Translations under genes and position numbers: made by a program
Notes under the pieces: model-generated
Seen by the model: the letters and a program-made list of their open reading frames with translations, nothing else
Database searches by the model: none
What the model was told of the DNA's origin: nothing
Shown here: positions 11,946 through 32,783 of the stretch, piece after piece
Layout: every line of letters begins with the position of its first letter
How positions within the stretch are numbered: position 1 is the stretch's first letter
NCBI RefSeq assembly: GCF_000422785.1
Contig: NZ_KE383919.1
Location: forward strand, 186,001-250,000
DNA from: Pseudovibrio exalbescens DSM 16456
GTDB taxonomy: Bacteria; Pseudomonadota; Alphaproteobacteria; Rhizobiales; Stappiaceae
Length of the DNA stretch: 64,000 nucleotides
Direction: 5' to 3'

Positions 11946-11963
11946 AAACTTGCCCGAGCCTGA
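11946..11963 (-). promoter_or_regulatory. Shared flagellar box upstream of flgE
   Basis: On the minus strand this reads TCAGGCT CGGG CAAGTTT, two related 7-base units in direct repeat with an 11-base period. The same pattern lies before flgB, the fliF unit, motA and the DUF1217 gene. The layout fits an OmpR-type activator; FtcR is the obvious candidate in this window. Function is inferred. Confidence 0.6.
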
Positions 11964-12001
11964 CTGAGTTTTCTCATTCAGAACGGGTAGTTGCGCCGTT
12001 T

Positions 12002-12580
12002 TCATCGACAAAACTGACGGGCATTCGACGTCCATTTGCCGAAGCCGCTGGCCACCATGTTGGCGATGACGCGGCAGATGTATCTTTTTTGTGCAGGGTC
12101 GTTATTTGGACCGGCGTGATAACGCGCTACAGCCATGGTCCATGTTCCTTCCCTGCGCTTGAGTTCGCTCAGAAAACGAGCCGCATAGGTCACGTTTTCC
12201 CGAGGGACCAACATGCTCTTCAGCGAAGGAAATTCCTGCGCGTGATAGAAAACGTTGATCTGCATGCACCCCACATCTATTAGCTTCTTGCCGCGGGCCT
12301 GTGCCCGGCGGATTGCGCGCACTGCATCAGCAGCACTTGGGGCAAAGTGAGAGGCCCCCTCGATATTGAGCGCATAGGGGTGCAGTGACCCTTTGCGCCC
12401 GGTTTCGGTAAGTCCCACGGAATAAAGAATACCGAGGGGCACGTTGTAGAGAGCGGCGGCACGTTCCAACTCACGTTCACACAACCGGATTCCGGTTTTG
12501 GAAGCCGTGGTCGCCAACGCTCCGGTGTCAGAGGTAAATACCGTCGCGCAAATCAGCAGCGTCGACGCCAGAACGCGCAT
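12002..12580 (-). CDS. Flagellum-associated lytic transglycosylase (SltF-like)
   Basis: About 192 residues with a cleavable N-terminal signal sequence (RVLASTLLICATVF) and an SLT domain. The catalytic Glu sits in VGLTETGRKG, and VGCMQINV is the conserved second motif. It cuts peptidoglycan so the rod can pass. The rod-binding FlgJ of this organism (2595-3092) lacks a hydrolase half, so this enzyme probably supplies that activity, as SltF does in Rhodobacter sphaeroides. I chose the ATG at 12580, with AGGAGG about 11 bases upstream, because a longer frame has no signal peptide at its start. The chosen start overlaps the end of fliK by 53 bases. Confidence 0.85.
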   Translation of the reverse strand: MRVLASTLLICATVFTSDTGALATTASKTGIRLCERELERAAALYNVPLGILYSVGLTETGRKGSLHPYALNIEGASHFAPSAADAVRAIRRAQARGKKLIDVGCMQINVFYHAQEFPSLKSMLVPRENVTYAARFLSELKRREGTWTMAVARYHAGPNNDPAQKRYICRVIANMVASGFGKWTSNARQFCR

Positions 12581-13982
12581 CACGTCCTCTGCCCTCCTGA
12601 AAAGCTTTCTCACGACCGTTTTGATTGGGATGCCCGTCCCCGCCTCGCGCGTCACCGCCTTGGCGACCATCACCTGATCCGGCTCGATCGCCCATGCCTC
12701 TGTCGCCCTGACCGGACAAATGCTGCCGCACTTGATCAGACACGTCGTTGCGAACATTGATCGTCAGGTTTCCGGAATCCGTCCGATAACCGGCATCGCG
12801 CAGCACCTTGGTCAACGCCAGACTATCCCGTTGCAACTGCTCGGCCGCTTCCTTGGAGCTTGCGGTCATCGTAATTTCCAAGGCATCACCTGAAAGCTGC
12901 ATGGAGACCCGTACGGTGCCAAGATTTTCTGGTCGCAGCTGTATTTCCAGTGTCTTTACGGGTGTCGCAGACTTGCTGTTCTGCGCCGCCTGAGACAGCT
13001 CACGAACCAGCTTGGCCGGATCGTTCAAACCACCATCTGCACGCATTACACCTTCCGCCACCTGACGAGATGGCCCCTTCAGATCACTCGTCGGCATGAA
13101 ATGGGTCTCAGCCTTGAGAACCTTCACGTCCTTGGCCTCCGGCGACACCTCCGCTTCTCCGACAGAAGGCTTGGTGCCCGCATTCGGATCAACCCGCATC
13201 TCTTCCGCCGTGTTGGACGGCATCACCTTGCCTTGGCCCGCCGCGACTTGATCCGCTACCGGCTTAGCCACACCCTCACCAGGTATCGGGGTCGCCTTTC
13301 CAAGTTTAGAACCTTCTCCAGCAGCGGTTGCGGTTTGCAGGTCAACGGTTTTTCCCGTTTCCATTGTCTGCCCAGAAGCACGGGGCAAGGTCGCGCCCAC
13401 CACGGCACCAGCTTGCCCTTGCATCTGCCCCTGGTTGGCTTGCGCGGCGTTGAGTGCCACAACAAGTCCAGCGGCAGTTTGCGCTGCGGTCGCCTGCGCC
13501 GATCCGGTTTGATTTGCTGCGCTCACGTCTGTGCTTTCGGCAGCCTCAGACGCGTCCCCACCGGTCTCATCACCAGCGAGTGCGAGCAAACGTTTCAAGG
13601 CTTTTTCAGCACCGGGCTCCAGCTCTTCGCCAGCAGCCAATTTAGACAGCAAGACTTCCGGCGCATTTTCCGGGTTTTTCACGGCCTTGGCCGCGGTTTT
13701 ACCTTCCGGATTTTGCTCAAGAAGCTGCTTGAGCGCCGTTTGCATTTCCTCGCTCGTCGGCAAGCCTTGTGCAGCGCCCCCCTTTTCGTTGGCCGCTAGC
13801 GCGTTTTGCCCGCCATCGCGACCGGGCAAGGCGTGCTCCTTGCCCTTCCCGCCGAGCTTTTCGAACAGAGCAGTGAACTCTCCACTGCGCGCCTGTGTTT
13901 CGGCTGCGTCACCCGATCCGCCTTTCGGCGTCTTGGCTCCCCCGCTCATGCCGGGGGTCATCAGGACTGGTGCGTTACTCAA
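12528..13982 (-). CDS. fliK: Hook-length control protein FliK
   Basis: A 484-residue protein. The first 330 residues are low-complexity, rich in Ala, Gly, Glu and Gln, as in the ruler part of FliK. The C-terminal hook-length domain is clear: LEIQLRPENLGTVRV, then LEITMTASSKEAAEQL and LRDAGY. FliK switches export from hook to filament subunits; the rhizobial protein was once named MotD. The start is a TTG whose first bases overlap the motC stop, with AAGGA about 10 bases upstream. The next ATG (13961) has no ribosome site. The end has a Gly-, Arg- and Asp-rich tail. Confidence 0.92.
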   Translation of the reverse strand: MSNAPVLMTPGMSGGAKTPKGGSGDAAETQARSGEFTALFEKLGGKGKEHALPGRDGGQNALAANEKGGAAQGLPTSEEMQTALKQLLEQNPEGKTAAKAVKNPENAPEVLLSKLAAGEELEPGAEKALKRLLALAGDETGGDASEAAESTDVSAANQTGSAQATAAQTAAGLVVALNAAQANQGQMQGQAGAVVGATLPRASGQTMETGKTVDLQTATAAGEGSKLGKATPIPGEGVAKPVADQVAAGQGKVMPSNTAEEMRVDPNAGTKPSVGEAEVSPEAKDVKVLKAETHFMPTSDLKGPSRQVAEGVMRADGGLNDPAKLVRELSQAAQNSKSATPVKTLEIQLRPENLGTVRVSMQLSGDALEITMTASSKEAAEQLQRDSLALTKVLRDAGYRTDSGNLTINVRNDVSDQVRQHLSGQGDRGMGDRAGSGDGRQGGDARGGDGHPNQNGREKAFQEGRGRDARSGVDAADLRDGIYL

Positions 13983-15187
13983 AATTCTGCGTCCTTCAAA
14001 ACAGCATTCGCTTGCGCGAGACTCTCATGAACTTCGGCCAACACCTCAGTGTTGACACCATACTTCTTCAATTCATTGGGCGGCAGATGGGGCGCAAAAA
14101 TAGATGCTTCGGTGATCTTGGGAGATGGCCATGCGCGAACGGAGTTGGCCACCCGGGCAACGGCGTCAGTAAGCACCTTGTTCTCTGGGGACAGCGACGC
14201 GTACTCGATCTTGCCGATCCCTCGAAGTGCCTCCAGCCAATCCTCTGACGACGCCTTTGCCGCAGCCACATAAAGCATCGCGTTGCGGCGCTCTTCCGGC
14301 TCAAGCTTGTCCATTTCCAAAATCATGTGCCCCGCCTTGCGGGCAAACTGCATGTTGCCGCTCACCAGCGACGCCCGTGACAAGGTCAACAACACCTGCA
14401 ACCGCGATTTTTCATCAAAATCAGCGATCAGTTGGAACACCTTGTCCCAATCCGTCTCGCGTTGCAGATAGCTTGACGTGCTCATGGTTTCCGCCATGGT
14501 CTTGCGGAAATCATCGGCAAAGATCGACTTGGGATATTGAAACAAGTAGCGCTGCGCCAAGCGCTCGAACTTGTCATGCTGACCGATGCGCGCAACAAGC
14601 GGCACCTGACGACGCAACGCGCTTTCCTCGACCAAGGTACCGGGCATGAGCAGCCGGGCCAGATCGAAGCGTTTGTTTGCCTTGGCTGGCTGGTCCTGAC
14701 TGAGAAGAATACCTTGGGCCAAGGCCACCTGACCTGAAAGGCCTGAAGGAAGGTCATGAACATCAACCTTTAAAAGCAGGTTTTTAGCAGCGGTCCGGTT
14801 CCCTTGCGAGTAGGCCATTGCGCCCGCAAACAGATTGGAGTCGGTGTTGAACGTAATGCCGCGCGAGGCCAACTCCTGAAATACCGATCCGGAGCCGCCG
14901 CTGAGCATAAACGCAACCGCTGCATTGGCCTGTTTGCGCTTTTCCCAAATCTGGGGATCGACCGACAGGAAGCGGCGGCCCAACACCAACAGTGAGGGTT
15001 GCAGCAAATCGTAGGCTTCCCGGTTGCCCTTGATGATTTCATCCTGGAGGATCTGCATCTCCAGAACCATCAGATCCGGATTGGCAGACACCGAGACCTG
15101 TGCTGTTGCCGGCCTGACCGCCACAGTACCCGTTGCGCCGAGTGCAATGGCTAGGCAGGCGGCTCTGATGGAATGACGCAACCTCAT
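13979..15187 (-). CDS. motC: Periplasmic motility protein MotC
   Basis: About 402 residues with a signal peptide (RAACLAIALGATG then an ATA-Q cleavage region) and a largely helical mature part. The block LMVLEMQILQDEIIKGN is typical of rhizobial MotC, a periplasmic protein that works with MotB to set flagellar speed. I chose the ATG at 15187, which has GGAGG 9 bases upstream, rather than one seven codons earlier that lacks a site. The gene lies between motB and fliK, as in Sinorhizobium. The likely chaperone partner MotE is encoded at 22665-23192. Confidence 0.9.
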   Translation of the reverse strand: MRLRHSIRAACLAIALGATGTVAVRPATAQVSVSANPDLMVLEMQILQDEIIKGNREAYDLLQPSLLVLGRRFLSVDPQIWEKRKQANAAVAFMLSGGSGSVFQELASRGITFNTDSNLFAGAMAYSQGNRTAAKNLLLKVDVHDLPSGLSGQVALAQGILLSQDQPAKANKRFDLARLLMPGTLVEESALRRQVPLVARIGQHDKFERLAQRYLFQYPKSIFADDFRKTMAETMSTSSYLQRETDWDKVFQLIADFDEKSRLQVLLTLSRASLVSGNMQFARKAGHMILEMDKLEPEERRNAMLYVAAAKASSEDWLEALRGIGKIEYASLSPENKVLTDAVARVANSVRAWPSPKITEASIFAPHLPPNELKKYGVNTEVLAEVHESLAQANAVLKDAEF

Positions 15188-15191
15188 GCTC

Positions 15192-17087
15192 TCAGACCTC
15201 CGGGTCATTCAACAGCATGATTTCAATGCGACGGTTCTGTGGTGCCAGCGTATCGCTTGGCACCTTGGGGCGCTTGTCCGCAAACCCTTCGATGCCTACG
15301 AACCGTTCTTCATCAAGGCCGCCTCGCCGTAGCATGTAGTAGGCCATGTGAGCGCGCGACGTTGAGAGGCGCCAGTTGTTGTAGTTGCCAGAGCGGAACG
15401 GGCGGCTGTCAGTATGCCCGCGTATAACGATCTTGCCGTTTTCCTGCTTGAGCACTTCGGCAATGCGCTCCATGGCTTTGACCACCTGGGGCTTTGGTTC
15501 AGCCGATCCAACCTCAAACATGCCGAACTGATCGTTGTCCATTACCTGAATGAGCACGCCCTCGGCATTGTGGGAGAACTCGACGCTGGCACCAGATGCC
15601 ACACCGCTCAGAGCATTACCCACGCGACTGCGAATTTCCGCAAGGCGCGCCTCAGCCGCCGGCTTTTGTGCAGGCACCGCCGGTTTGGTTTCACCAATCC
15701 CCTGTTCAGACTTGTCTGAGTTCGCCATCAACATCGTGTTGGTTTCGCCATCAAGCTCACGGTCAGAGGTGCCATCTTCGCTTTGAGACGACGTTCCGTT
15801 TTCCTTCAAGTCGGAAGTGCCAGAGAATGGCTGTCCGGAACCACCATCTTCGGTCTGATCAGAACTTCCATCTGCTGTTTGATCGGAGGTGCCGTCTTCC
15901 TTTTGCGAAGTCGCCCCCTCAAAAGGCTGATCCGAGGTTCCGTTCTCCGCCAGTTCCGTCCCATCGTTGCCCGAACCATCCGAATCCGGGCGCTGAGACG
16001 CGAGAACTTCTGCAATCTCGGCAAACTCGGCTTCTCCTGCAGCCGCCTCGTCCTGCGCAGCTTGCCCCAGCACAATTACAGAGCTTTCTGTAGCACCGCC
16101 GTTTTCGGCTTCCTCACGCTTGACTAGCCCCACTTGCGTGCCTTGCTCCTTGCCAGCGATGTCAGATCCAGCTTCAGGGCGATAAACAATGGCAGATCCG
16201 CTTTTCAAGGCCTCTTCCTGACCTTCCATTTCCGGATCCTTGATCCCGGCGCGGGCCAGATCTTTAGCGTCTTCAAGAACACGGATCTGTTCCGGGCTCA
16301 ATGCAGTCACATCCAGCCCATTTTCGACTTCCGTCACGATTGGAACCCGGGCGAGCAATGGAGAGTTGCCTGGCAATTCTTCGCTCTGCCAACCGGATGG
16401 ATCAAAGGGATCGCGAAAACTGGAGCCCTCTGCAAGACCCTGCCCTTCGGGGTCCCGGTTCGGACGGGCAAACAACACAGGCGTCTTGGCGCGTTGCATG
16501 GCACCAGGGCCGCCCTGCCCAGCAGTGCCGTCCGTTTCAACCAACGCTTCGGCTTCAACGGCCAGCGCGGCAAGAACGGCATAGGGATTGTCAAAAAGTT
16601 CCTGTTCCGTGTAGCTGCCGGCCTTGCCGCCTCGAGGGCTTTTCACACGACTGGCATCACCGGGAACCTTCTCAGAAGAACGTCCCGCGCCGTTGGCGTC
16701 TTCTGTCTCCGACTCGGTGATCGGCTCCGGTTCATCCAGCCCCCCACCGGTTGCCGGGCCATTCAGCTCCGTTCCACCGAGACCGGCGTTCTTGCCGTCC
16801 TCGATGCCTTCATTGCCTTCAGCGGGCGGATTGGGGTCTTCCGGGTCCCGCAACCCTTTCGGTTGCGAGGCTGTATCAACGATCTTCATGGGGTTGAAGT
16901 AGGCAACGACACCGGCGCGGGTAGCGCTATCGGAAGCGTTGACCAGCCACATCACGAGGAAAAAGGCCATCATGGCGGTCGTGAAGTCGGCATAAGCGAT
17001 CTTCCACACGCCAGACTTCCCGCCTTGATCAAGATCGTCATTCCGGCGCCGGACAATGATCAGCTCAGACTGCTCTTTTTCAGCCAT
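15192..17087 (-). CDS. motB: Stator protein MotB with an extended linker
   Basis: A 631-residue MotB, much longer than the roughly 300 of enterobacteria. Residues 27-50 form the membrane helix, with the proton-binding Asp at position 34 in KIAYADFTTAMMAF. The C-terminal 140 residues are an OmpA-like peptidoglycan-binding domain (IVIRGHTDSRPF, NWRLSTSRA, APQNRRIEI). Between them lies an acidic, Gly- and Ser-rich linker of more than 400 residues that contains eight tandem 8-residue repeats (15747-15938). Rhizobial MotB proteins also have long linkers. It precedes motC by 4 bases, while motA is about 15 kb away. Confidence 0.95.
   Translation of the reverse strand: MAEKEQSELIIVRRRNDDLDQGGKSGVWKIAYADFTTAMMAFFLVMWLVNASDSATRAGVVAYFNPMKIVDTASQPKGLRDPEDPNPPAEGNEGIEDGKNAGLGGTELNGPATGGGLDEPEPITESETEDANGAGRSSEKVPGDASRVKSPRGGKAGSYTEQELFDNPYAVLAALAVEAEALVETDGTAGQGGPGAMQRAKTPVLFARPNRDPEGQGLAEGSSFRDPFDPSGWQSEELPGNSPLLARVPIVTEVENGLDVTALSPEQIRVLEDAKDLARAGIKDPEMEGQEEALKSGSAIVYRPEAGSDIAGKEQGTQVGLVKREEAENGGATESSVIVLGQAAQDEAAAGEAEFAEIAEVLASQRPDSDGSGNDGTELAENGTSDQPFEGATSQKEDGTSDQTADGSSDQTEDGGSGQPFSGTSDLKENGTSSQSEDGTSDRELDGETNTMLMANSDKSEQGIGETKPAVPAQKPAAEARLAEIRSRVGNALSGVASGASVEFSHNAEGVLIQVMDNDQFGMFEVGSAEPKPQVVKAMERIAEVLKQENGKIVIRGHTDSRPFRSGNYNNWRLSTSRAHMAYYMLRRGGLDEERFVGIEGFADKRPKVPSDTLAPQNRRIEIMLLNDPEV
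15747..15938 (-). repeat. Eight tandem 24-bp units coding octapeptides in the MotB linker
   Basis: In protein order the units are TSDQPFEG, ATSQKEDG, TSDQTADG, SSDQTEDG, GSGQPFSG, TSDLKENG, TSSQSEDG and TSDRELDG. The consensus is about TSDQxEDG. They are in frame with no gap, and the DNA copies have diverged, so the array looks maintained at the protein level. Confidence 0.85.
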
Positions 17088-17088
17088 T

Positions 17089-17727
17089 TCACCCCTTGCC
17101 TTCTTCTTTTGCGTGAAGTTCTGAAATCCACTCCGAAAGACCGGAGGACAGCGTCATTTCACCCACGCGCACCTCCAGATCTCCGCCTTCTGTCTCTGTG
17201 TAATTCATCAAGTGAAACAGATCGCCGGAAGTTCGCTCGAAGAGGTCATGCAGATCCTTTGGTCCCTTGACCTCAATCACCGCCTCACGATTGTCGGAGA
17301 GGTGACGACGAAGGACCTGTGAGAGCGTGGAAATGGCTTTTTCTCGCGCCTGATCGTGCAGGAACGGAATCAGGATTTCCGCAACAGCTGCAGACACCTT
17401 TTCTTCAAGTCCAGCCAGCGCCTGCTTCACTTGTTCTTCAAGGATGCGGCCCTGTTCTTCCTTCCAGGCTTTTTGGGTCGTGACGAACTTCTCATCGAGT
17501 TCCTTTTTCATTTCCTCGATGCGGGCATCACACTCAGCCTGTTTGGACTCCTCACCTTCCGAAAAGCCGTTCTCGTACGCTTCAAAAACACGGCCGACCC
17601 AGTCGCCGCCCTCGCCGTACGCCTTGGGCAGGATGGCGACAACATCGTTCAGTTCGAGCGGATCATGTGACCCTCTCTCGGTCGCATCCGTAAAGTCGGC
17701 GAGAGTATCTGCCAGCGCCTTTGTCAT
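17089..17727 (-). CDS. fliH: FliH-like regulator of the export ATPase
   Basis: A 212-residue acidic protein. The middle (residues about 50-120) is a charged coiled coil with CDARIEEMKKELDEKF, and the C-terminal 60 residues form a small domain with EVRVGEMTLSSGLSEWI, similar to the end of FliH/HrpE stator proteins. FliH holds FliI at the base of the motor. The gene overlaps fliF by 4 bases (ATGA) and is followed after 1 base by motB. FliH is poorly conserved, and the position after fliF is the strongest support. Confidence 0.8.
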   Translation of the reverse strand: MTKALADTLADFTDATERGSHDPLELNDVVAILPKAYGEGGDWVGRVFEAYENGFSEGEESKQAECDARIEEMKKELDEKFVTTQKAWKEEQGRILEEQVKQALAGLEEKVSAAVAEILIPFLHDQAREKAISTLSQVLRRHLSDNREAVIEVKGPKDLHDLFERTSGDLFHLMNYTETEGGDLEVRVGEMTLSSGLSEWISELHAKEEGKG

Positions 17728-19409
17728 GAGGCATGACCCTGGTTATACATCCACTGCTTGAGAATAATCGCAGCCTGTACATCATCCAGATCCACTGCAC
17801 GCTCCAGCTTGCGAAGCGCTACGCGGTTGACCATGGTCGGATCTTCATCATCGGCCACGTGAGCGAACTCCGGACCTCCAAGGGCGGCATATCCGCCCTC
17901 AGCGCCCGCTGCCCCTTCCAGAGCGGCCTGCTCTGCATGCCCTTCAGGCAACGCCGCCAACGCAGAGGCATTCGCTGCGTTTTCATCTTCCAGTTCCTGC
18001 TGAGTTGGCAGCAGGAAGGCGACGGCTGGACGAAGACCAAACCAGATGATCATCAACGTAACGACAAGGATTGCCAGTGCGTTGACCAGACTACCCATGT
18101 TGCGCATCAGCGCATCCATTATGGTCTGCTGAGGGATAGGTTGCAGCTGACCTTGTGGTGTGAGGAAGTTCACCGCACTCACAGTGATGCGGTCACCGCG
18201 GCTCTGATCCAGACCTGCAGCGGTGGCGATGATCTGCTCGATTTCCTGAAGCTTTTCATCCAGCTGCTCAGGGGTAATCTCCTCACCAGTGCCGGAGTCA
18301 GCCAGCAGACGATGACGGTCCACCACAACCGCGACAGACAGGCGGTCGATCTTGTAATCATCGAATACGGTTTCGACTGTACGGCTTGAGATTTCATAGT
18401 TTGTTAGTTCTTCACGGCGTTCGTTCTGCTCAGACGAGCGCTCGCCGCCTTGGGCATCGATCTCTTCTTCAGGCAGGTTTTGTTCAACCGTGACCGGTGT
18501 CTCGACACTGGCGTTTTGAGATTGCTCATTTTCACGCACGACGCGGAAGGACCGTTCCACACGGCTTTCGGGATCGAAGATCGTCTCCGAAACGCGCTGT
18601 TGGTCGGTGTCGAGTTGAGCCGAAACGCTGACTTCGAAATTCCCGATTCCAAGATAAGGCAGCAGCGCACGGCGAATGGACGACTGCGCACGCGACACCA
18701 TGGTCTCTTCCAGCATGACCTTGCGGCCAGTAGACGCATTCGCCTCGGCATCACCAGCCGCCAGAAGCTGCCCTTCGGTGTCCAGCACCGTTACACCGTC
18801 TGCAGACAGGTTCGGTACGGCGGCAGCGACGAGATGACGGATGGATTGCGCAAGACTACCCACCTCACCCGGATCTGTGCGAATGAGAACCGACGCCGTC
18901 GGCTTTTGATCTTCGGTGCGAAACGACGCGCGCTCCGGCAACACCAGATGAACCCGGGCGGCCTTGATGCCGCGCATGGATTGAATTGTGCGGGAGATTT
19001 CCCCTTCGAGAGCGCGAACCCGGGTGATGCCTTGCATGAACGAGGTCAACCCAAGCGACCCCATTTCGTCAAAGAGCTCATAGCCAGCGCCAGAGCCACG
19101 TGGCAACCCCTTCTCGGCCAGCAGCATGCGCGCCCGAGCTGTTGACCCAACATCAACCGTGACCACCGAGCCATCGGAACTGACATCGAACGGGATGCCT
19201 GCATTTTGCAGAGCCGTCCCGATCTGACTTACGTCGTCCCGCTCCAGGTTCGCATACAACACTTCCTGTTGGGGACGTGACAGAAGATATGCAGCAACAC
19301 CAATCGCTACAAAGGTGATCAAACCAACAAAGCCAAGGGCGATCAGCCGCTTTGTTCCAAGCTGAGCCAGGTTGGCATAGATTTTTTCTGCGTTTTCGCG
19401 GGCAGCCAT
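17724..19409 (-). CDS. fliF: MS-ring protein FliF
   Basis: About 561 residues with membrane helices near both ends: LIALGFVGLITFVAIGVAAYLL and NALAILVVTLMIIWFGLRP. Ring-building motifs between them include RAARVHLVLPERASF-like KAARVHLVLPE and NYEISSRTVE. The C-terminal tail after the second helix (ALRKLERAVDLDD) binds FliG. I chose the ATG at 19409 (MAARENAEK) because upstream in-frame choices need a TTG. It begins 92 bases after an unrecognised 322-residue gene on the same strand. Confidence 0.95.
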   Translation of the reverse strand: MAARENAEKIYANLAQLGTKRLIALGFVGLITFVAIGVAAYLLSRPQQEVLYANLERDDVSQIGTALQNAGIPFDVSSDGSVVTVDVGSTARARMLLAEKGLPRGSGAGYELFDEMGSLGLTSFMQGITRVRALEGEISRTIQSMRGIKAARVHLVLPERASFRTEDQKPTASVLIRTDPGEVGSLAQSIRHLVAAAVPNLSADGVTVLDTEGQLLAAGDAEANASTGRKVMLEETMVSRAQSSIRRALLPYLGIGNFEVSVSAQLDTDQQRVSETIFDPESRVERSFRVVRENEQSQNASVETPVTVEQNLPEEEIDAQGGERSSEQNERREELTNYEISSRTVETVFDDYKIDRLSVAVVVDRHRLLADSGTGEEITPEQLDEKLQEIEQIIATAAGLDQSRGDRITVSAVNFLTPQGQLQPIPQQTIMDALMRNMGSLVNALAILVVTLMIIWFGLRPAVAFLLPTQQELEDENAANASALAALPEGHAEQAALEGAAGAEGGYAALGGPEFAHVADDEDPTMVNRVALRKLERAVDLDDVQAAIILKQWMYNQGHAS

Positions 19410-19501
19410 ACGCACCTCTGATGCTTTACATTCCTGCCCTATTTTGACCAATAACCTTGCGCGAAGGTGGTGCGGCGATTATTGGCGGAAAACAGCCAGT
19501 T

Positions 19502-20470
19502 TCAAGGGATCGAAATGGGCGAACGCGGCCCATCACCTGACCTACCCAAAGGTGTAATGGCTTGAAAATCGCTCAACCGGCCCTCCGCGATTCCCTGAGA
19601 CGAGCTGGCGAGATGCTCTGCCGTCAGCCCGGCAAGTTGCAACGCTGCCCGCAAGGACAGGCTCTCGTTCACCTTTTCCAACAGGTGGTCGCGCATGGCT
19701 TCGACTTTTTGCCCAAGGGCGGACTGATGGGCATCCAGTCGATTGAGAAAAGCCGCCAAGGTGCCCCTGGCATCCTGAAGTCGCCGCTCAAGGCCTTCAA
19801 CGGCAGAGAGCACCTCAAACAGACGGGCCTCCCCCTCCACGCCCTGTGTCAGGTCCAAAAGATCCATCGTGAGAACCGTCGGGGCGGGTTCAAGGTTGGC
19901 ATCAGGTCGACAGACCGGTTGTTCCAAGGCCCCTGCGCCGTTGCCAGTTATCAAAACCACGCGAGACAGGTTCAACAATGCCTTGGTGACGACCGCGGAT
20001 CCGTCAGCGGCGGTCATGACATCGATTGGCACAGCCAGATATTCAACGTCGGAACGCGCAACGAAGTCCTGGCGCTTGCAGCGCTCCTGCTTGAAGGCCA
20101 ACTGATTGGCGCAACAGGACACTTTTTCCTGAAGGATACTAATTTCCGCTTGCACCTTGCCACGGTCCACTCCCGGCGCACCAGCTTCATTCAGCAAGTC
20201 GCGAATTTGGCACAGGTACCCTATGAGACTGACCTGGAGATCGGCAAGCTCCAGCACCTCCGATGAGCCATCAGCGACCGTTTTGTGGTATGCAGCAACC
20301 ATATCCTGTTCAGGCATGGCCCCATCCTCGCCATGATCGACGGCCAGCGCGGTCCCGACATCGGTTTCCTCACCAAGCACCGTTATCATGCCACACATTG
20401 CCCTGAGCGAAATTCGGCTGGGTTTTGATTGCTTATGGGATTTCGCAGGTTTGGATGGAAAAGGCCGCAT
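19502..20470 (-). CDS. Unrecognised protein leading the fliF unit
   Basis: About 322 residues; I do not recognise the family. The N-terminal 60 residues are basic then acidic. Residues about 80-140 and 220-290 look like coiled coils (LADLQVSLIGYLCQIRDLL; LFEVLSAVEGLERRLQ). There is no membrane segment or signal peptide. Four Cys residues cluster in CQIRD, SCCANQ and ERCKRQD. The ATG at 20470 has GAGG 5 bases upstream. It is the first gene after a shared flagellar box (20591-20608) and the terminator of fliP, and is followed by fliF. A cytoplasmic motor or chemotaxis-linked role is possible but unproven; some rhizobia carry regulator genes near fliF. Confidence 0.7.
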   Translation of the reverse strand: MRPFPSKPAKSHKQSKPSRISLRAMCGMITVLGEETDVGTALAVDHGEDGAMPEQDMVAAYHKTVADGSSEVLELADLQVSLIGYLCQIRDLLNEAGAPGVDRGKVQAEISILQEKVSCCANQLAFKQERCKRQDFVARSDVEYLAVPIDVMTAADGSAVVTKALLNLSRVVLITGNGAGALEQPVCRPDANLEPAPTVLTMDLLDLTQGVEGEARLFEVLSAVEGLERRLQDARGTLAAFLNRLDAHQSALGQKVEAMRDHLLEKVNESLSLRAALQLAGLTAEHLASSSQGIAEGRLSDFQAITPLGRSGDGPRSPISIP

Positions 20471-20590
20471 GCCCCTCACCTTTCCATGGCATAAGGTGCA
20501 TCAGCATGACCTGTCGCCTAGACGCCGACAGCCCCAACACCTTGAATGATTGATTGAGTACACATTGTACACTTGCCAAGTATAGTGAAT

Positions 20591-20608
20591 GAACTTGCTT
20601 CAGCCTGA
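20591..20608 (-). promoter_or_regulatory. Shared flagellar box upstream of the fliF unit
   Basis: The minus strand reads TCAGGCT GAAG CAAGTTC, the same direct-repeat pattern as upstream of flgE and flgB. It is 121-138 bases before the preferred ATG of the first gene, farther than at the other four sites, so either the leader is longer or the start lies elsewhere. Confidence 0.55.
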
Positions 20609-20654
20609 CCAAAGATACAATTTTATTAAGTTAGGCGGGTATCTATTTATGTAA

Positions 20655-20685: not shown

Positions 20686-20716
20686 CCTGAAATTCGCACT
20701 GCGATGTCAGCTTGTA

Positions 20717-23192: not shown

Positions 23193-23272
23193 CGCACCAT
23201 AAGTCCTGAGGAATGAGTTGAGCTGATCTTGAAGGCGCAAACTTGCCTGTGGCTTGTTGTGCGCCTTCTCAA

Positions 23273-24400: not shown

Positions 24401-24403
24401 TTC

Positions 24404-24883: not shown

Positions 24884-24906
24884 GTTCGCTCTCGCTTTTC
24901 TAGGTT

Positions 24907-25695: not shown

Positions 25696-25705
25696 GGTCT
25701 AGCCC

Positions 25706-26059: not shown

Positions 26060-26478
26060 TAACGCGACCTCAACAAGTCAATTGTTCGGGTAATCATTTC
26101 GCGCGACTGCTTCATCAGCGACAACCCGGCCTCATAGGAGCGAGTTGCTTCGCGCATGTCAGAAAGCTCAATGAGCGTGTTCACATTCGGATACTTGACG
26201 TTTCCATTCTCATCTGCAGCCGGATGCGACGGATCATATTCAATACGGAAGGCGCTATCGTCCTTGCCGATGCCATCAACTTCCACCAGCTCCGCACCGA
26301 GCGCACGATCCATCTCGCTCTGAAAAGTAATGGTCTTGCGCTGATAGGGATCAGCCCCTTCGGTCTTGCCCGTGGACTGAACGTTAGCGAGGTTCTCGGA
26401 GACAACGCGCATACGCTGCGATTGCGCATGCAGCCCCGACCCGCTGATTTTCAATGATGCGGCTAAAGGATCAATCAT
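26059..26478 (-). CDS. flgC: Proximal rod protein FlgC
   Basis: A 139-residue protein with the rod signature [22 protein letters not shown] near the N-terminus and the C-terminal block [23 protein letters not shown]. Length and motifs are standard for FlgC, which forms the proximal rod with FlgB and FlgF. It begins 3 bases after flgB. Confidence 0.97.
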
Positions 26479-26481
26479 GTG

Positions 26482-26865
26482 TCATCGCTTTCCTAAACTA
26501 GCCAGAAGAAGGCCGTGGAACTTCTGCACAACAGCCGTATTCAGCTGATGTGATCGGGCCACTTCACCCGACTTGATCATTTCCTGTTCCAGAGAGACGG
26601 AGTTTTCAGAGGCCGACACCTGCCAAGGCTCAGCCTCCACATTGCGCACATCACGCGCTGTTTCGAAATCGCCGCCCAAATGACCAGAGGTTGTGGCGAT
26701 CATGCCCAACTGCGTCTTGTCGAGAACATCGCGAAAGGGCTCGACATCCTTTGCAGTGTAGCCAGGCGTATCTGCCTGAGAGACGTTCTCGGCAATTGTC
26801 GCCTGCCTGACGGACAGCCAAGTGGATTGGCGCGAAGCAAGATCGAACAAGTAAACCGGTTCCAA
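26482..26865 (-). CDS. flgB: Proximal rod protein FlgB
   Basis: A 127-residue protein. The start is a TTG giving MEPVYLFDLASRQ, the expected FlgB opening, with GGAG 7 bases upstream. The only nearby ATG upstream reads straight into a stop. The rod signature is VRQATIAENVSQADTPGYTAKD, and the C-terminal helix has EQEMIKSGEVARSHQLNTA. It is the first gene of a ten-gene operon ending at fliP. A shared flagellar box lies 46-63 bases before the start. Confidence 0.95.
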   Translation of the reverse strand: MEPVYLFDLASRQSTWLSVRQATIAENVSQADTPGYTAKDVEPFRDVLDKTQLGMIATTSGHLGGDFETARDVRNVEAEPWQVSASENSVSLEQEMIKSGEVARSHQLNTAVVQKFHGLLLASLGKR

Positions 26866-26910
26866 AACGCTACTCCATGGATCACATTAGTGACCCTTGG
26901 GTACCAATCG

Positions 26911-26928
26911 AATCTTGCACGAGCCTGA
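26911..26928 (-). promoter_or_regulatory. Shared flagellar box upstream of flgB
   Basis: The minus strand reads TCAGGCT CGTG CAAGATT. It is the closest match to the flgE site: the first 9 bases, TCAGGCTCG, and the GCAAG are identical. It is the only striking feature between flgB and the terminator at 27003-27030. Confidence 0.6.
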
Positions 26929-27002
26929 CGGCCAAAGCCATTCAGACCCACCACCGCCGGTTGATGGCACCAGATGCCCGTACCCAAAGCAGGACACACC
27001 AA

Positions 27003-27030
27003 TAAAAAAGGCCCGCACCAAGTGCGAGCC
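27003..27030 (-). terminator. Terminator of the motA-flhB block
   Basis: On the minus strand GGCTCGCAC, a 3-base loop, then GTGCGGGCC, followed by TTTTTTATT. It lies 27 bases after the stop of the gene at 27057-27560 and separates that block from flgB. Confidence 0.9.
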
Positions 27031-27056
27031 ACACGCCCTTCCCCACTTTCAGGAAC

Positions 27057-27560
27057 TCAGGATTGTCCGGACAGGACTGCATCTTCCAGTGCATCACGAA
27101 ACCGCTGCGAATTGTCCAGCACGTCACGCTCCAAACGATCAAACGCGATGAACTTGACGTCCACGGCCGACTTGAGCGGCAACAGGAACAATTCAAACAT
27201 CACAGTCACGCCGTTATTCTGAAAGTTGAGATGAAAGCATACGGACTGATCGCCCGACCAATTGAGATCAATGGTCGCCGTGCCCGCGTAACTGATCGTC
27301 CCGTCCTTGAAATAAAGCTCACAGGAGGACTCGATCAAATCGGCGATATTGCCGGTCTCATGCCCAAGAATATGCCGTGCAAGGCAATTCAAATCGACAA
27401 GGCGCAGTTCGGCGGCCAACGGCCGAATGGCTTCTGCAAGCAAAGCCTCGCGCTCTGCATGTTCGGTAACCGTCGTATCTACTTCGCTCGCGTCGACTAG
27501 ACTTTCGGCTAATGGAAATGTCCGCATGGCATCCTTACGCGCGGCTACACATCTACTCAT
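27057..27560 (-). CDS. Hypothetical protein coupled to flhB
   Basis: A 167-residue cytoplasmic protein I do not recognise. Its ATG overlaps the flhB stop (ATGA), so it is translated with flhB and is the last gene before the terminator. The N-terminal 50 residues are helical and acidic (EHAEREALLAEAIRPL). The rest looks beta-rich (IDLNWSGDQSVCFHLNFQ), ending in a helix (RFRDALEDAV). There is no membrane segment or signal. A motility role is inferred only from coupling. Confidence 0.7.
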   Translation of the reverse strand: MSRCVAARKDAMRTFPLAESLVDASEVDTTVTEHAEREALLAEAIRPLAAELRLVDLNCLARHILGHETGNIADLIESSCELYFKDGTISYAGTATIDLNWSGDQSVCFHLNFQNNGVTVMFELFLLPLKSAVDVKFIAFDRLERDVLDNSQRFRDALEDAVLSGQS

Positions 27561-28621
27561 CTTCTACTCACATACACGTAAGAAATAATTTCTGCAACTG
27601 CCCTGTAATATTCAGGGGGAATATATTGATCTACCGCTACGGCTGCATGCAGCCCGCGCGCCAGTTCCTTGTTTTCAACCACAGGGACATCGTTTTGATA
27701 GGCGATCTCCTTGATCTTGAGCGCAACGAGATCTTGCCCTTTCGCGGTCACTCGGGGCGCTGAATTCTCACCACGATCATAATGCAACGCGACGGCAAAG
27801 TGCGTCGGGTTGGCGACCACCACCGTCGCTTCGGCTACACTGGACATCATCCGCTTGCGCGCCCGGTCGCGCGCCAGCGACCGCATGCGTGCCTTGAGGA
27901 TGGGATCCCCTTCTGCCTGCTTGTACTCGTCCTTGATGTCTTGCCGCGTCATACGCAAGTTCTTGCGCCACTGGAACCGTGCCAACACCAGATCGAAGCC
28001 GACCAACGCAATCGTTGCAACACAAATGGCCGAGAGCAACTTGATCGCGATCTGCAAAATGGTCTGCGGCAATAGCGAAGGGTCCTGATACATGGCAGTA
28101 AGTGCCACCGCCTGCTGAGACCGCAACACAATCAATGCAACCGCCCCAACGATGCTCAGCTTTATCAGGGATTTAACAAACTCCATGAAGCCATTCATGC
28201 TGTAGATGCGGCCGAACCCCTTGATCGGAGAAATACGATTCAGTTTCGGCTGAATGCGATCCAGGACCAGGCGCGGTGCGTTTTGCAAGAATGAGGCGGC
28301 CAGTCCAAGAATGATCAAGAGACCCGCGATCGGCATGAAAAACCGACCGAACTCCAAGGACACGATATACAGCAATTCCACCGCATCCTCATCGCTGAGC
28401 ATGCGTATCTCGCCAGGATTGTCGAGGAACCAACGTAAAAAGCCCGAAAAGCCGGCACCAGCGTCGTTAAGCATGAAAGTCAGAATAAACATCATGCCTA
28501 CGAAAGACGCGAGAACGGAGGCTTCCTTCGATACCGGGATATTGCCTTTCTCAATGGCATCCCGGATTCGCTTCTCCGTAGGCTCTTCTGTTTTACTCTC
28601 TTTATCCTGATCTTCCGACAT
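27557..28621 (-). CDS. flhB: Flagellar export switch protein FlhB
   Basis: About 354 residues: a charged N-terminus (KTEEPTEKRIRDA), four membrane helices, then the cytoplasmic domain. The self-cleavage motif NPTH is present in VVVANPTHFAVAL, so the substrate-specificity switch should work. Later VVENKELARGLHAAV is also conserved. I chose the ATG at 28621, which has CAGGCGGG upstream, over a GTG two codons earlier. It lies 45 bases after fliG. Confidence 0.97.
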   Translation of the reverse strand: MSEDQDKESKTEEPTEKRIRDAIEKGNIPVSKEASVLASFVGMMFILTFMLNDAGAGFSGFLRWFLDNPGEIRMLSDEDAVELLYIVSLEFGRFFMPIAGLLIILGLAASFLQNAPRLVLDRIQPKLNRISPIKGFGRIYSMNGFMEFVKSLIKLSIVGAVALIVLRSQQAVALTAMYQDPSLLPQTILQIAIKLLSAICVATIALVGFDLVLARFQWRKNLRMTRQDIKDEYKQAEGDPILKARMRSLARDRARKRMMSSVAEATVVVANPTHFAVALHYDRGENSAPRVTAKGQDLVALKIKEIAYQNDVPVVENKELARGLHAAVAVDQYIPPEYYRAVAEIISYVYVSRR

Positions 28622-28666
28622 GCCCACCCGCCTGAACTAGCCGCCCATGAAAACCGGCATGCCGGA

Positions 28667-29704
28667 TTAGATGTAGACCTCTTCGCTACGTCCCAGGTCG
28701 AGCTCGATCTCTCCGCTGTTCGCTTTTTCCAAAGCCAGATCGGTGATCTGGCGACGGGCATCGAATACCTCACGCTGTGGTGATGGCTCGCCGGAGGCCA
28801 GGTCGTTCTCGACAATACGTTTGGCGCGCGAAGAAATGGACGACAGGATCGCATCGCGGAAGTCTGGCTCGGTTCCCTTCAGAGCCAAAGTGATGACGTC
28901 CGTATTGATGTCGTCGAAAATTGCCATCCGTGTACGCTGATCCAGATTGACGATATCGTCGAACGTGAACAGAAGACCTGCGAGCTGTTCCGCCGACTTG
29001 GGCAGCACTTCCCGAAGATTGTCCAACGTGTCCTCAAGATCGTCGCGTTCCATCTTGTTGAGGATGTCCGCCATCCGCGCATGCGCATCCGTACCCACAG
29101 TACGGGCGAAGTTGACCATGAAGTCTTCATGGAGTGTTTTTTGCACTTCGTCCATCACGTCCTCAACAATTGGCTTGAGGGTCAGCATGCGGCGGACGAT
29201 CTCATTTCTCTTGCGCCGCGGAATTTGCGAGATGACACCCGCTGCAGCATTCGGCGAAATTTTTGACAGAATGAAAGCAGCCGTCTGCGGATGCTCCTTT
29301 TGCAGATAGGTCGACAGCACGTGCTCCGAGATCTGAGAGACCTTGTCCCATATGGAGCGTTTGGAATACCCCATGACATCGGACATGATCTCGGCAACCT
29401 GCTCTTCCGGCAGGATCCCTCTGAGGAGACCTTCAGCGCCCTCTGCCGTACCAAACAGGTTTACACCGCCGGAAAACAGTTCGATGAACTCTTCAATCAG
29501 TTCCTCAAGTTCATTTGCTGGCACCGTCCCCAGTTCGGCCGCCGACCGGATGATCAGACGCATCTCGTCATTGTCGAAATGCTTGAGCACCCGTGTCGCC
29601 TTCTCGTTGCCCATCGCCAAAAGCAGGGCTGCGGCCTTTTGTGTCCCGGATTTGTGAACAGCCACCGCTGTTCCGGTTCCTTGAACCTGAAGCGCTTTGT
29701 TCAT
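28667..29704 (-). CDS. fliG: C-ring switch protein FliG
   Basis: A 345-residue protein with FliG N, middle and C domains. The N domain has AALLLAMGNEKATRVLKHFD, the middle has EHPQTAAFILSKISP (an EHPQ motif) and the C domain has FDDIVNLDQRT with the charged helix that meets MotA. FliG transmits torque and sets rotation. It lies between fliN and flhB in the block headed by motA. Confidence 0.97.
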   Translation of the reverse strand: MNKALQVQGTGTAVAVHKSGTQKAAALLLAMGNEKATRVLKHFDNDEMRLIIRSAAELGTVPANELEELIEEFIELFSGGVNLFGTAEGAEGLLRGILPEEQVAEIMSDVMGYSKRSIWDKVSQISEHVLSTYLQKEHPQTAAFILSKISPNAAAGVISQIPRRKRNEIVRRMLTLKPIVEDVMDEVQKTLHEDFMVNFARTVGTDAHARMADILNKMERDDLEDTLDNLREVLPKSAEQLAGLLFTFDDIVNLDQRTRMAIFDDINTDVITLALKGTEPDFRDAILSSISSRAKRIVENDLASGEPSPQREVFDARRQITDLALEKANSGEIELDLGRSEEVYI

Positions 29705-29721
29705 GCTGCTTCCCTATCGCC

Positions 29722-30144
29722 TTACGCGTAACTACCCTTGGCGCCCACAATCTCTGTCAGAGAGACGCCGAACCGTGAATTATCATCTTCAACAACCACG
29801 ATCTCACCTCGGGCAACCGTTCGCCCGTTCACCACGATATTGACTGGCTCACCCACACGGTGATCGAGCGGGATGACAGCGCCACGGCCCAACTTCAACA
29901 AGCTTGCAACCGGCATGGTGGCGGAGCCCAGCACGACCTGCATGTCAACCGGAATGCCAAGCACGGCATCCAGATTGCGATCCACGTTGGAATCGCTCAT
30001 GCCATCGCTATCCTGCGCCTGAGAGGTTGAAGCGGCTGGCGTTGCAGCCATTGCCTCTTCCATGCTCATATCGGCTTCGGCAGCAGCAGCTTCCCACTGC
30101 AGGGCCAGAGCCTCATCGCTGGTCATATCGTTGGAACCGCTCAT
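29722..30144 (-). CDS. fliN: C-ring switch protein FliN
   Basis: About 140 residues. The N-terminal 60 are acidic and flexible. The C-terminal SpoA domain has VLGSATMPVASLLKLGRGAVI, LDHRVGEPVNIVVNG and FGVSLTEIV, the standard FliN fold. I chose the ATG at 30144, with GGAG 9 bases upstream; a TTG two codons earlier is too close to that site. It sits 17 bases before fliG. Confidence 0.95.
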   Translation of the reverse strand: MSGSNDMTSDEALALQWEAAAAEADMSMEEAMAATPAASTSQAQDSDGMSDSNVDRNLDAVLGIPVDMQVVLGSATMPVASLLKLGRGAVIPLDHRVGEPVNIVVNGRTVARGEIVVVEDDNSRFGVSLTEIVGAKGSYA

Positions 30145-30172
30145 AGCCAATCACTCCAAGAGAATTGTTAGT

Positions 30173-30853
30173 TTAGTCTTTGACATTTACGCTTCTAAAC
30201 GGCGCAGCCTGTCCAAAGCTTACCTTGCGCACACGCAAATTCTGTTTGTTAACCGCTGAGACAGCCTCACCAGACTGACCCTCCCCGGCCTTTCCTGCAG
30301 GTGCCGTACCCGCCTCCGACTTGCCCCCAGCGGCCGCACCACCTGCAGCGCGGCCCGCTGCGGCACCCTGCGCCTTGTGAGAGGCATCCGGCTTCGCCGC
30401 ACCCTGCATCGCGCGGCCCTGACCGGCGTGCAACCGGCTGCGCGGCGCGGCGCTTCGAGCGCCTCGGCCTGCCGGGCGATCCGGAACGCGGGCATCAACA
30501 TGAGACAGGTCTACTCCAACCTTGTCTGCGGCCGCCTGAAGCCAGTCGACATATTCTTGCAAATGGCTCATTTCCTCATGAGCCTTATGGATGACCGAGT
30601 TCATATCCACGGTTGTTTCCTTGGCGGTATCGATACGCTCGCTCAAGGTATTGGAGATTTCTTCACCACGAACACGCAGCTCTTGCAGCGTGACGCTAAT
30701 GGCATCCATCGCGTCCGATGTCTGATCAAAGACCCGCTGATAGTCTTCATGATGCGATGCCATGACCCGCAGCTGCCTGTACATGAGCACCACCCGCCAC
30801 GTGGTGAGCAAAAGCGCGAGAAATAAAAATCCGTCAATTAGATATGATGTCAT
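30173..30853 (-). CDS. DUF6468 protein of the flagellar cluster
   Basis: A 226-residue protein. One N-terminal membrane helix (LIDGFLFLALLLTTWRVVL) is followed by a coiled coil (residues about 35-105) and a long Ala-, Gly- and Lys-rich tail (AGRAAGGAAAGGKSEAG). This matches the DUF6468 family, found in alphaproteobacterial flagellar clusters with no known function. Its start overlaps fliM by 20 bases and fliN follows after 28. A scaffold near the C ring or stator is a guess from topology. Confidence 0.8.
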   Translation of the reverse strand: MTSYLIDGFLFLALLLTTWRVVLMYRQLRVMASHHEDYQRVFDQTSDAMDAISVTLQELRVRGEEISNTLSERIDTAKETTVDMNSVIHKAHEEMSHLQEYVDWLQAAADKVGVDLSHVDARVPDRPAGRGARSAAPRSRLHAGQGRAMQGAAKPDASHKAQGAAAGRAAGGAAAGGKSEAGTAPAGKAGEGQSGEAVSAVNKQNLRVRKVSFGQAAPFRSVNVKD

Positions 30854-31811
30854 CTAGAAGGTCTCCATCTTGCTGGATCAACTCATCAATTCGGACGGTA
30901 TAGGACCCAGCAACCTGTCCCAGTTTACAGTTGAACAGGGGTTGTCTGTTGCACTCCAGCCGCACAGGTGTTTTGGGTGTTGCATTAAGCTCAAGCACAA
31001 GACCGACCTCGAATTGAGCTACCTCATCCAAAGTCAGGCGCTGCTCTTCAAGCACAGCCGTGAGCTTCACCTCTGTTTTTTGAATTTCGTGCTGGAACTG
31101 TTTCGTCCAGCGGGTATCCCGTCCTGCAACTTCGCCGGAAAGGACCTGTGTCAGGTTCTGTCGCAGCGGGTTCAGAACCGACTGCGGAATTACAATGAAG
31201 ATCTCGCCTTCGCGCCCGATAAGCTCGGCGGCCATCTGACAAACGACACACTGGTTGCTGCGCCGACCGGTTTGCGCGAACTCGGTGCGCGTTTCCAGGC
31301 GCTCTACCTTCAACGTGACATCCGCAATCGCTTCGAAGGCGCTGGCCATTGCCTGCGCCGCTTCGGTAAACATCTTGTGTGCGAGGCGCTGCTCCACACT
31401 GGTCAGGGCCCGATCCTCGATGAACGGCTCCTCTTCCCCATCGCCGCCGAGCAGCAGCTCCACCATGGAAAAGATGAATTGCTTGTCAAAACCCAGCAGA
31501 ATGCGCGCATCCCACTCCTGAGCATGCAAAACCGCAATAATGGCCTTGTCTTCATAGACATCCAGCGCATCACCAATGCGATCATTGCGCACGGACTGAA
31601 CCGCGATGTACGGAGCTGACGCTGCCATCTGACGCAAGATGTCTATGTATTGGCGCGCCATGCGGTCGAAAACAACGTGCAGCATGGGCAACCGATCAAC
31701 GCCGATACCTGCCGCATCGAGAAGACGCTGAGGCAAGTCAAACTTTGCCCCGTTATCTTCTTCACTGTCATCATAGGTGCCCGGCTCGATCACATCGCTT
31801 TCGTACTGCAT
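30834..31811 (-). CDS. fliM: C-ring switch protein FliM
   Basis: A 325-residue protein with the middle CheC-like domain (LELLLGGDG-type VELLLGGDGEEE, carrying the GGxG motif that contacts FliG) and a C-terminal SpoA domain (FNCKLGQVAGSYTVRI). The N-terminus is acidic (YESDVIEPGTYDDSEEDNG) and I cannot find the usual LSQxEIDALL peptide that binds CheY-P. Length is standard. It lies between motA (3 bases upstream) and the DUF6468 gene. Confidence 0.93.
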   Translation of the reverse strand: MQYESDVIEPGTYDDSEEDNGAKFDLPQRLLDAAGIGVDRLPMLHVVFDRMARQYIDILRQMAASAPYIAVQSVRNDRIGDALDVYEDKAIIAVLHAQEWDARILLGFDKQFIFSMVELLLGGDGEEEPFIEDRALTSVEQRLAHKMFTEAAQAMASAFEAIADVTLKVERLETRTEFAQTGRRSNQCVVCQMAAELIGREGEIFIVIPQSVLNPLRQNLTQVLSGEVAGRDTRWTKQFQHEIQKTEVKLTAVLEEQRLTLDEVAQFEVGLVLELNATPKTPVRLECNRQPLFNCKLGQVAGSYTVRIDELIQQDGDLLDDIISN

Positions 31812-31814
31812 GGG

Positions 31815-32675
31815 TTAAGCGGCTCCTGCGTTCATTGTCTCTTCTTCAACTTCATCAATGGTTGGGCGCGCATCTGCGGAGATGGTCTTGCGACCGTGCT
31901 CCAAAGCAATCTGCGGAGCTGCACCATTCATGAAGGCCAGAAGGGTTTGCTTGACTTCGATGTAGAGGCGATAGCGGCGCTCACGAACCTGTTTGATCTT
32001 TTGCCCGATAGGGCTGACGATGCCGTAGGACAGGAAGATACCGAGGAAAGTTCCGACCAGCGCAGCACCGATAAGCGCACCTAGAATTTCGGGCTCCTGA
32101 TCAATGGCGCCCATCGCCTTGATGATACCCAGCACTGCAGCAACAATACCCAATGCAGGCAAGGCTTCGGCCAACGTGCTCAATGCATGGTAAGGCTTCA
32201 ACTCTTCCCGACCGATGGTATGCAGCTCTTCATCCATGAGGGCTTCAATCTCATGGGGGCGCACATTGCCAATCACGATCAGGCGGAAGTAATCGCAGAT
32301 GAAGCTGGTCAGGGATTCATTACCCAAAACGCTGGGAAAGCGCTGAAACAGTTCCGATTCATGCGGATTATCAATAATGGCTTCCACGTCGTTGCGCCCC
32401 TTGGCGCGCAGCGTGCGCATGAGACCATAAAGCACACTCAGCGTATCAAGGTGATCCCGCTTCTTCGGCACGGCATATTGGAAAGCCTGAACGATGCCTC
32501 GCCCCGTGTCCTTTATTGTCTTGAAGGAGTTCCCGACAACAAATGTCCCAAAAGCAGCACCGCCAATGATTACGAACTCGAAGGGTTGCCATAGCACGCC
32601 AAGATGACCACCCATTGCCATGTAACCACCGAGCAACGACCCGATCACGATCACCAAACCGACAATAATATTCAA
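31815..32675 (-). CDS. motA: Stator protein MotA
   Basis: About 286 residues with four membrane helices. Typical motifs: [19 protein letters not shown] near the N-terminus, a charged cytoplasmic loop ([14 protein letters not shown]), and the last two helices containing [15 protein letters not shown] and [18 protein letters not shown]. It conducts protons with MotB. The family normally begins at N-I-I-V-G; a TTG at 32675 gives exactly that and has GGAG 6 bases upstream. A longer reading to a TTG at 32699 is possible. motA heads a seven-gene block while motB lies 15 kb away. Confidence 0.95.
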
Positions 32676-32727
32676 AACGCGCTCCACTCTTCGAGCCAAT
32701 TCCAGATTGAGAACGTTCTAGAGGCAC

Positions 32728-32745
32728 TGGCTTGTCTGAAACTGG
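32728..32745 (-). promoter_or_regulatory. Shared flagellar box upstream of motA
   Basis: The minus strand reads CCAGTTT CAGA CAAGCCA, 53-70 bases before the preferred motA start. It is a variant of the flgE and flgB boxes and lies head to head with the box of the divergent DUF1217 gene. Confidence 0.5.
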
Positions 32746-32765
32746 CGCACCGAACAGACCCCAAA

Positions 32766-32783
32766 TCAGTTTCAGGCAAGCAA
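32766..32783 (+). promoter_or_regulatory. Shared flagellar box upstream of the DUF1217-flgF-fliI unit
   Basis: The plus strand reads TCAGTTT CAGG CAAGCAA, 45-62 bases before the start at 32828. Its core CAGTTTCAG matches the motA box on the other strand, so the divergent promoter carries one copy facing each way. Confidence 0.55.

Follow-up and report, generated by a model that had tools for sequence, protein, structure and literature searches.

The flagellar gene cluster of Pseudovibrio exalbescens DSM 16456 analysed here lies on a stretch of 64,000 nucleotides (contig NZ_KE383919.1, positions 186,001 to 250,000; hereafter the window, numbered from its first letter). Upstream of four lead flagellar transcription units, motA, DUF1217-flgF-fliI, flgB and flgE, it carries a direct repeat of two 7-bp units, an element that is conserved across the Hyphomicrobiales and whose family form stands at a fixed distance from the TA of a −10-like element. 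In our view these boxes probably serve as the operator-promoters of a single flagellar regulon. FtcR is the most likely candidate for the orphan OmpR-type activator that would occupy the paired half-sites there and recruit sigma-70 polymerase.

A shared box upstream of the lead flagellar units

An initial annotation of this DNA had proposed five boxes reading TCAG-N7-CAAG, and all five lie at the coordinates and on the strands it gave. The strongest, which is the window's top site by both methods used here, is upstream of motA (32717..32747, minus strand, formerly 32728-32745), with a position weight matrix (PWM) score of 29.4, a cross-validated score of 26.6 and an E-value of 0.00026 under a second motif model, R1. 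The boxes upstream of DUF1217-flgF-fliI (32764..32794, plus strand, formerly 32766-32783; PWM 24.4, cross-validated 21.9, R1 E 0.0011) and flgB (26900..26930, minus strand, formerly 26911-26928; PWM 23.8, cross-validated 20.8, R1 E 0.0034) follow, and like the motA site both include the TA of the −10-like element. The flgE box (11935..11965, minus strand, formerly 11946-11963) has a PWM score of 15.9, a cross-validated score of 15.0 and an R1 E-value of 0.023. The proposed pattern is exact in four of the five boxes; the motA box begins CCAG instead and reads CCAGTTTCAGACAAG. Distances from the CAG to the gene start (flgE 74, flgB 62, motA 45 and DUF1217 61 nt) are as previously described.

The pattern TCAG-N7-CAAG occurs nine times in the window against an expected 2.8, a number reached in none of 100 shuffles. 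A tighter version, TCAGKYTN3GCAAG, has seven matches in the 4.16-Mb genome, five of them in this cluster, and the reversed control pattern has one. One of the five, at 37338-37352 on the plus strand between ftcR and an open reading frame (ORF) resembling PilZ, is absent from the initial annotation. The two matches outside the cluster lie in an ABC ATPase Walker-A coding stretch and before a CoA-transferase-like ORF (both named by eye). The earlier observation is thus confirmed and is larger than first reported, and its interpretation as a whole is partly supported.

Conservation follows the same genes. The motA box is kept in eight aligned Pseudovibrio loci and the flgB box in eight of eight, and the flgE box is found in all 15 genus relatives, 71-75 nt before the start, with scores of 14.9-19.7. 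Absence from close relatives, named in the initial annotation as a finding that would count against a regulatory box, is therefore not what we see.

The motif and its geometry

An expectation-maximization (EM) motif search run without a prior used 85 unique sequences of 89 taken upstream of flgE, flgB, motA and DUF1217 in relatives, with our own window excluded. It returned cGcCAGCtTCGcGCAAGcctg.....cTA with an occupancy of 0.95 and a log-likelihood of 982, against 103 for shuffled sequences. The family motif can also be written CGCCAGCTTCGCGCAAGC-N8-CTA, in which the direct repeat CMAGCYT-N4-CAAGCYT, with its period of 11 bp, is followed by the TA of a −10-like element; its core is [CA]AG[CT][CT]TC[GA][CG][GA]CAAG, followed by ten bases and then TA. 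The EM matrix has 72% T at position 25 and 91% A at position 26. A site with a PWM score of at least 15 is present in 76 of the 85 sequences. Alignment A1, which holds 67 of the 85 sites after removal of nine below PWM 15 (six DUF1217, two motA, one flgE) and nine identical repeats, gives TAnnnT as the downstream consensus, and the consensus contains no TTGACA (−35).

Half-site correlation peaks at an offset of 11 (r = 0.70 among direct offsets of 7-16), and the best inverted arrangement reaches 0.56 at 12, which bears out the earlier description of an OmpR-type direct repeat with an 11-bp period. Two direct half-sites 11 bp apart, a short fixed distance to a −10-like element and the lack of a consensus −35 together fit an OmpR/PhoB-type class II operator-promoter. 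At class II promoters of the PhoB type, the Pho box consists of two direct repeats of 7 bp, spaced by 4 bp, which stand in for the −35 a short way upstream of the −10. The element described here shares this 7-4-7 layout and, putatively, the −35 position, but differs in half-site sequence and lies a few bp nearer the −10. If TAnnnT is taken as the −10 hexamer, the box would span about −37 to −20.

Gene placement, cross-validation and a second motif model

The number of high-scoring sites in the window is far above that of simulated sequence: 40 windows generated with a first-order Markov model predict 0.25 sites scoring at least 15 and 0.45 scoring at least 13, against six and nine observed. 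Gene placement was counted within 220 bp upstream of genes, training sequences included, in the window and in 49 loci whose genes had been mapped (L037-L045, L080-L119). At PWM 15 or above the box precedes motA in 12 of 12 cases, flgB in 14 of 14, flgE in 15 of 16, DUF1217 in five of six and PilZ in one of two. It precedes flhA in four of 11 (five of 11 at 13), flgF in three of 12 and fliF in one of ten (five of ten at 13). Apart from ftcR, treated below, none of the remaining genes in this set has a site at 15, with one each at 13 for fliN and o27057. Inside genes the control count is one in 353, and the opposite strand of upstream regions gives 18 in 359, at least partly from the divergent motA/DUF1217 pair. 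Both these counts and the tight-pattern scan of the genome speak against the box being equally common before non-flagellar genes. The second-type flgE lacks the box in all 20 genomes searched, six of them with FtcR, and no site there scores above 5.

A cross-validation matrix built from 66 sequences, none from Pseudovibrio, ranks motA, DUF1217, flgB, PilZ, fliF and flgE as the top six sites of the window, in that order, followed by sites at 23228 (14.4) and 30194 (14.0), both in coding regions. The first of these (23228-23258) lies inside motE and scores higher (20.7) in a P. exalbescens relative; the similarity may be coding conservation. When each gene was left out of training in turn, sites scoring 12 were recovered for flgE in 11 of 15 sequences, flgB in 13 of 13, motA in 30 of 32 and DUF1217 in 19 of 25, with none in shuffled sequences. 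On the reverse strand the counts are zero for flgE and flgB, 26 for motA and 17 for DUF1217, which we take to be the box of the divergent partner.

With filters off, R1 picks out just motA, DUF1217, flgB and flgE in the window (E 0.00026 to 0.023), so we regard these four as firm and the remaining sites as leaning on conservation. Across our own genome (150 of 1253 candidates scored), three of the four top R1 matches fall in the cluster. Matches outside it (L152, L154-L158) adjoin no motility gene recognisable by eye. Taken together, EM motif, gene placement, genus relatives and cross-validation strongly support the shared cis-element upstream of flagellar units claimed in the initial annotation. 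In our judgement, from sequence comparison, this is a real and deeply conserved putative operator-promoter before four lead units and probably before more.

FtcR as the candidate binder

The gene ftcR (36415..37152, minus strand) encodes an orphan OmpR-type regulator, the proposed binder, in which Trans_reg_C scores above the Pfam cut-off and Response_reg below. As had been noted, it is the only OmpR-type regulator of the window: its product is the sole PF00486 protein there, of 12 in the genome. Orthologs of FtcR are present in 47 of 199 genomes of the order (best E ≤ 1e-50; the next genome stands at 6e-24). DUF1217 is found in 43 of the 199, and 41 of these also have FtcR. In a search for FtcR beyond the order, one of 240 genomes drawn from the class has it at E ≤ 1e-30, and this is our own genome. 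Control of flagellar genes by members of the FtcR/Rem/LafR/ActR group is reported for Brucella, Sinorhizobium, Rhizobium, Bradyrhizobium and Azorhizobium (PMC9456535, PMC8429497, PMC8639532).

Box and regulator occur in the same genomes. An R1 match at E ≤ 0.02 is found in 30 of 47 genomes with FtcR and in six of 152 without it (Fisher p = 8e-18), about three of the latter being expected by chance. Some matches were probably missed, since stricter filters were applied across the 199 genomes and 35 candidates were scored in each. The training sites came from genomes with FtcR, so the fairer figure is that for FtcR genomes that contributed no training site, nine of 16 (p = 2e-7); these include our own genome and some congeners of training genomes, and G219, whose site is identical to one used in training, was not counted. 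This shared distribution, and the fact that the window encodes no second OmpR-type protein, make FtcR the likely binder. In the two genomes with DUF1217 and no FtcR (G166, G196), the fetched stretches hold no other flagellar gene by tblastn and hence give no information on whether flagellar genes carry the box; a lone site in G196 (L308) scores 21.3.

Several observations weigh against a single FtcR regulon read through this box. FtcR is present in every one of the 35 genomes that encode a first-type FlgE (E ≤ 2e-80). A Brucella FtcR study (PMC9456535) gives the motif TGTGGGCA, present in 118 of 363 peaks from chromatin immunoprecipitation and sequencing, and reports that its mutation abolished the gel shifts obtained with the ftcR and betI promoters. 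This motif occurs once in the window (34571, inside an ORF), at none of the promoters described here and before none of 50 ftcR genes. The box itself precedes ftcR in none of 50 cases at PWM 15 and in two at 13, despite reported autoregulation. R1 E-values for the fliF, PilZ, flhA and 20591 sites (0.46 to 9.7) are weaker than those of some coding-region matches, and the six further R1 matches listed among the 150 candidates scored in our own genome are none of these promoters. The conflict with the published FtcR motif is real and still stands.

Because FtcR coincides with the flagellum type in 35 of 35 genomes, phylogeny cannot separate the one from the other, and another regulator tied to that flagellum type would give the same pattern. 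The box could then be the site of such a companion regulator, with FtcR acting elsewhere, for instance at TGTGGGCA, as the published motif and gel shifts would suggest. We regard this as unlikely. The window encodes no OmpR-type protein besides FtcR, and the 11-bp direct repeat suits that family. According to PMC8429497, B. diazoefficiens and A. caulinodans lack VisNR yet have rem homologs, and the lateral flagellum, unlike the polar one, is under LafR control, in agreement with the lack of boxes before the second-type flgE.

The fixed distance to the −10-like TA would also fit an element that is no activator site but a core promoter read by an alternative sigma factor, a reading to which we attach very little probability: the conserved block is a direct repeat and the downstream element a plain TAnnnT. 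FliA (sigma-28) scores above the TIGR02479 cut-off in none of 16 genomes, and sigma-28 promoters, the class that this check covered, were rejected on that ground.

Chance similarity of short sequences is less probable still. It draws on the expectation of 2.8 loose-pattern matches per window, and cross-validation and conservation across families stand against it; for the motA, DUF1217, flgB and flgE boxes we consider it refuted by the EM search, gene placement and cross-validation. Single weak sites, such as those at 6435, 23228 and 30194, may still be due to chance.

The CtrA site is TTAA-N7-TTAA and is bound by an OmpR-type regulator with the same 11-bp half-site spacing, CtrA controls flagella in many Alphaproteobacteria, and a pattern of this kind lies before ftcR, but the boxes, read directly, have no TTAA half-sites and no TTAA-N7-TTAA inside them, so membership in a CtrA regulon was rejected as the least probable reading of all.

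Weaker sites upstream of fliF, flhA and a PilZ-like gene

The fifth of the boxes first proposed, 20591-20608, was said to serve the fliF unit. The site (20579..20608, minus strand, box plus TATACT) fits the family motif poorly (PWM 1.7, R1 E 9.7), with the TA one base nearer and an unusual position 9, and it precedes a lineage-specific ORF (19502-20479), which in turn lies before fliF. It is nevertheless a conserved island: in the P. exalbescens relative L269, the core is identical at 19 of 21 bases and the flank at just 39 of 114 (unaligned flank counted as different). Chance, considered at first for its low score, was dropped after this alignment. The ORF gives tblastn matches in two of 15 genus relatives (L269, L277), and several stretches end earlier or show no gene there; it encodes 325 residues and has no Pfam match at 1e-4. 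The conserved core suggests a lineage-specific promoter that is probably not the main fliF promoter.

Directly upstream of fliF is a weaker box-like site, CACCTTCGCGCAAGG (19442..19472, minus strand; PWM 14.1, cross-validated 15.4). Similar sites stand 18-21 nt upstream in 14 of 15 genus relatives with scores of 6.3-17.4, 12 of the 15 at 13 or more. The gene is a published direct FtcR target; its upstream site is weak (R1 E 0.46), as the counts in the wider loci given above also indicate. If the site is real, fliF would start downstream of 19451. Another weaker site, CACGCTCACACAAGT, lies upstream of flhA (6435..6465, minus strand; PWM 13.5, cross-validated 9.6, R1 E 2.5). A counterpart is present in each of the 14 genus relatives whose stretch includes flhA (8.9-15.5; 12 of 14 at 13 or more), and the flhA upstreams of L092, L093, L094 and L097 score 16.3-20.5. 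Our own genome also encodes a second FliF, with matches to fliG, fliN and flhA (G000:C1:46713-48164, L284); no box was found upstream of the fliF or flhA of that locus.

The remaining box (37336..37365, plus strand; PWM 15.7, cross-validated 16.5, R1 E 0.62) is upstream of the PilZ-like ORF 37379-37780. At P. exalbescens L037, AGTCAGTCCGACACAAG stands 50 nt before the PilZ-like ORF with a score of 13.8; the P. exalbescens pairwise alignment stops short of this box. The ORF is divergent from ftcR and was found in one of 11 loci searched, L037. It was named PilZ by eye and has no Pfam match at 1e-4.

FtcR and its own control

Across 49 aligned FtcR sequences, that of the window included, a glycine is invariant at the position expected for the phospho-acceptor aspartate, a register that is our own reading, given the poor alignment of the canonical protein in this region. 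The glycine is followed by D, E or Q in the FtcR sequences inspected. With apparently no conserved phospho-acceptor in the receiver, control probably works through the amount of FtcR and not through a sensor kinase; LafR is said to act without phosphorylation (PMC8429497). The true ftcR start probably lies near 37101.

Upstream of ftcR a pattern match to the CtrA-type site TTAA-N7-TTAA is present at 37204..37218 (minus strand). Such matches precede seven of 50 ftcR genes and eight of 408 other genes (Fisher p = 4e-4), from which we infer that CtrA may set the supply of FtcR. In S. meliloti, as PMC4433202 reports, CtrA neither binds rem nor changes its expression.

A model for the regulon

We propose that FtcR, an ortholog of Rem, LafR and ActR, would bind head-to-tail on the two 7-bp half-sites of CMAGCYT-N4-CAAGCYT. 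By analogy with the pho box, the half-site pair would replace the −35, an OmpR/PhoB-type dimer standing in for the −35 contact. The regulator would then act as an activator rather than a repressor, recruiting sigma-70 RNA polymerase to motA, DUF1217-flgF-fliI, flgB and flgE, with fliF, flhA and the PilZ-like gene probably in the same regulon. The level of FtcR, perhaps set by CtrA, would be the point of control.

Relation to known systems and occurrence beyond the cluster

The cluster shares much of the Bradyrhizobium lateral-flagellum gene set, as described in PMC6406911. As in the FtcR/Rem/LafR/ActR systems, an FtcR ortholog is encoded in the same cluster as the boxes, but the box differs from the Brucella motif (PMC9456535). 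The box is not described in the accessible text of PMC9456535, PMC8639532, PMC8429497, PMC4018554, PMC4433202, PMC9611204 or PMC6406911. A literature search did not find it; this search did not cover the primary Rem, LafR and FtcR papers, hence the box is not established as unprinted.

Fourteen further stretches with boxes from genomes with FtcR (L291-L304) extend the picture. Three of the boxes precede motility genes identified by eye, namely two genes resembling chemoreceptors (L295, L297) and, in G008, one resembling motA (L298). Strong boxes in three genomes of one genus (L291:2044, L292:1963, L293:1977) precede a conserved 59-residue protein of unknown function, and the other eight stretches show no clear motility gene. 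In G134 a CAAGCTTCGCGCAAGCTT box (L285:15251), a near-perfect double repeat of the AAGCTT type, lies between a TctD-like OmpR-type regulator (by eye) and a transporter-receptor-like ORF. Unlike the flagellar cluster, this locus has no flagellar gene except for the regulator's own weak FtcR match. That G134 is a flagellar genome with a missed FtcR was rejected, as its boxes adjoin non-flagellar ORFs; to judge from this site, similar repeats may be used by OmpR-type regulators other than FtcR.

A broader view, which we hold tentatively and put at somewhat below an even chance, is that the FtcR/Rem/LafR family as a whole uses the box as its main operator. It would be a Hyphomicrobiales-wide 7-4-7 repeat joined to the −10 and read by a phosphorylation-independent pseudo-receiver, serving one lateral-type regulon that reaches chemoreceptors and PilZ, and TGTGGGCA would not be the main FtcR site. 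As the box conflicts with one published FtcR motif, both motifs are directly testable. With a sequence rule for where a flagellar master regulator binds, regulons could be read from the genomes of many soil-dwelling, marine and symbiotic bacteria, and in cells with two flagellar systems the rule would tell which one the regulator switches.

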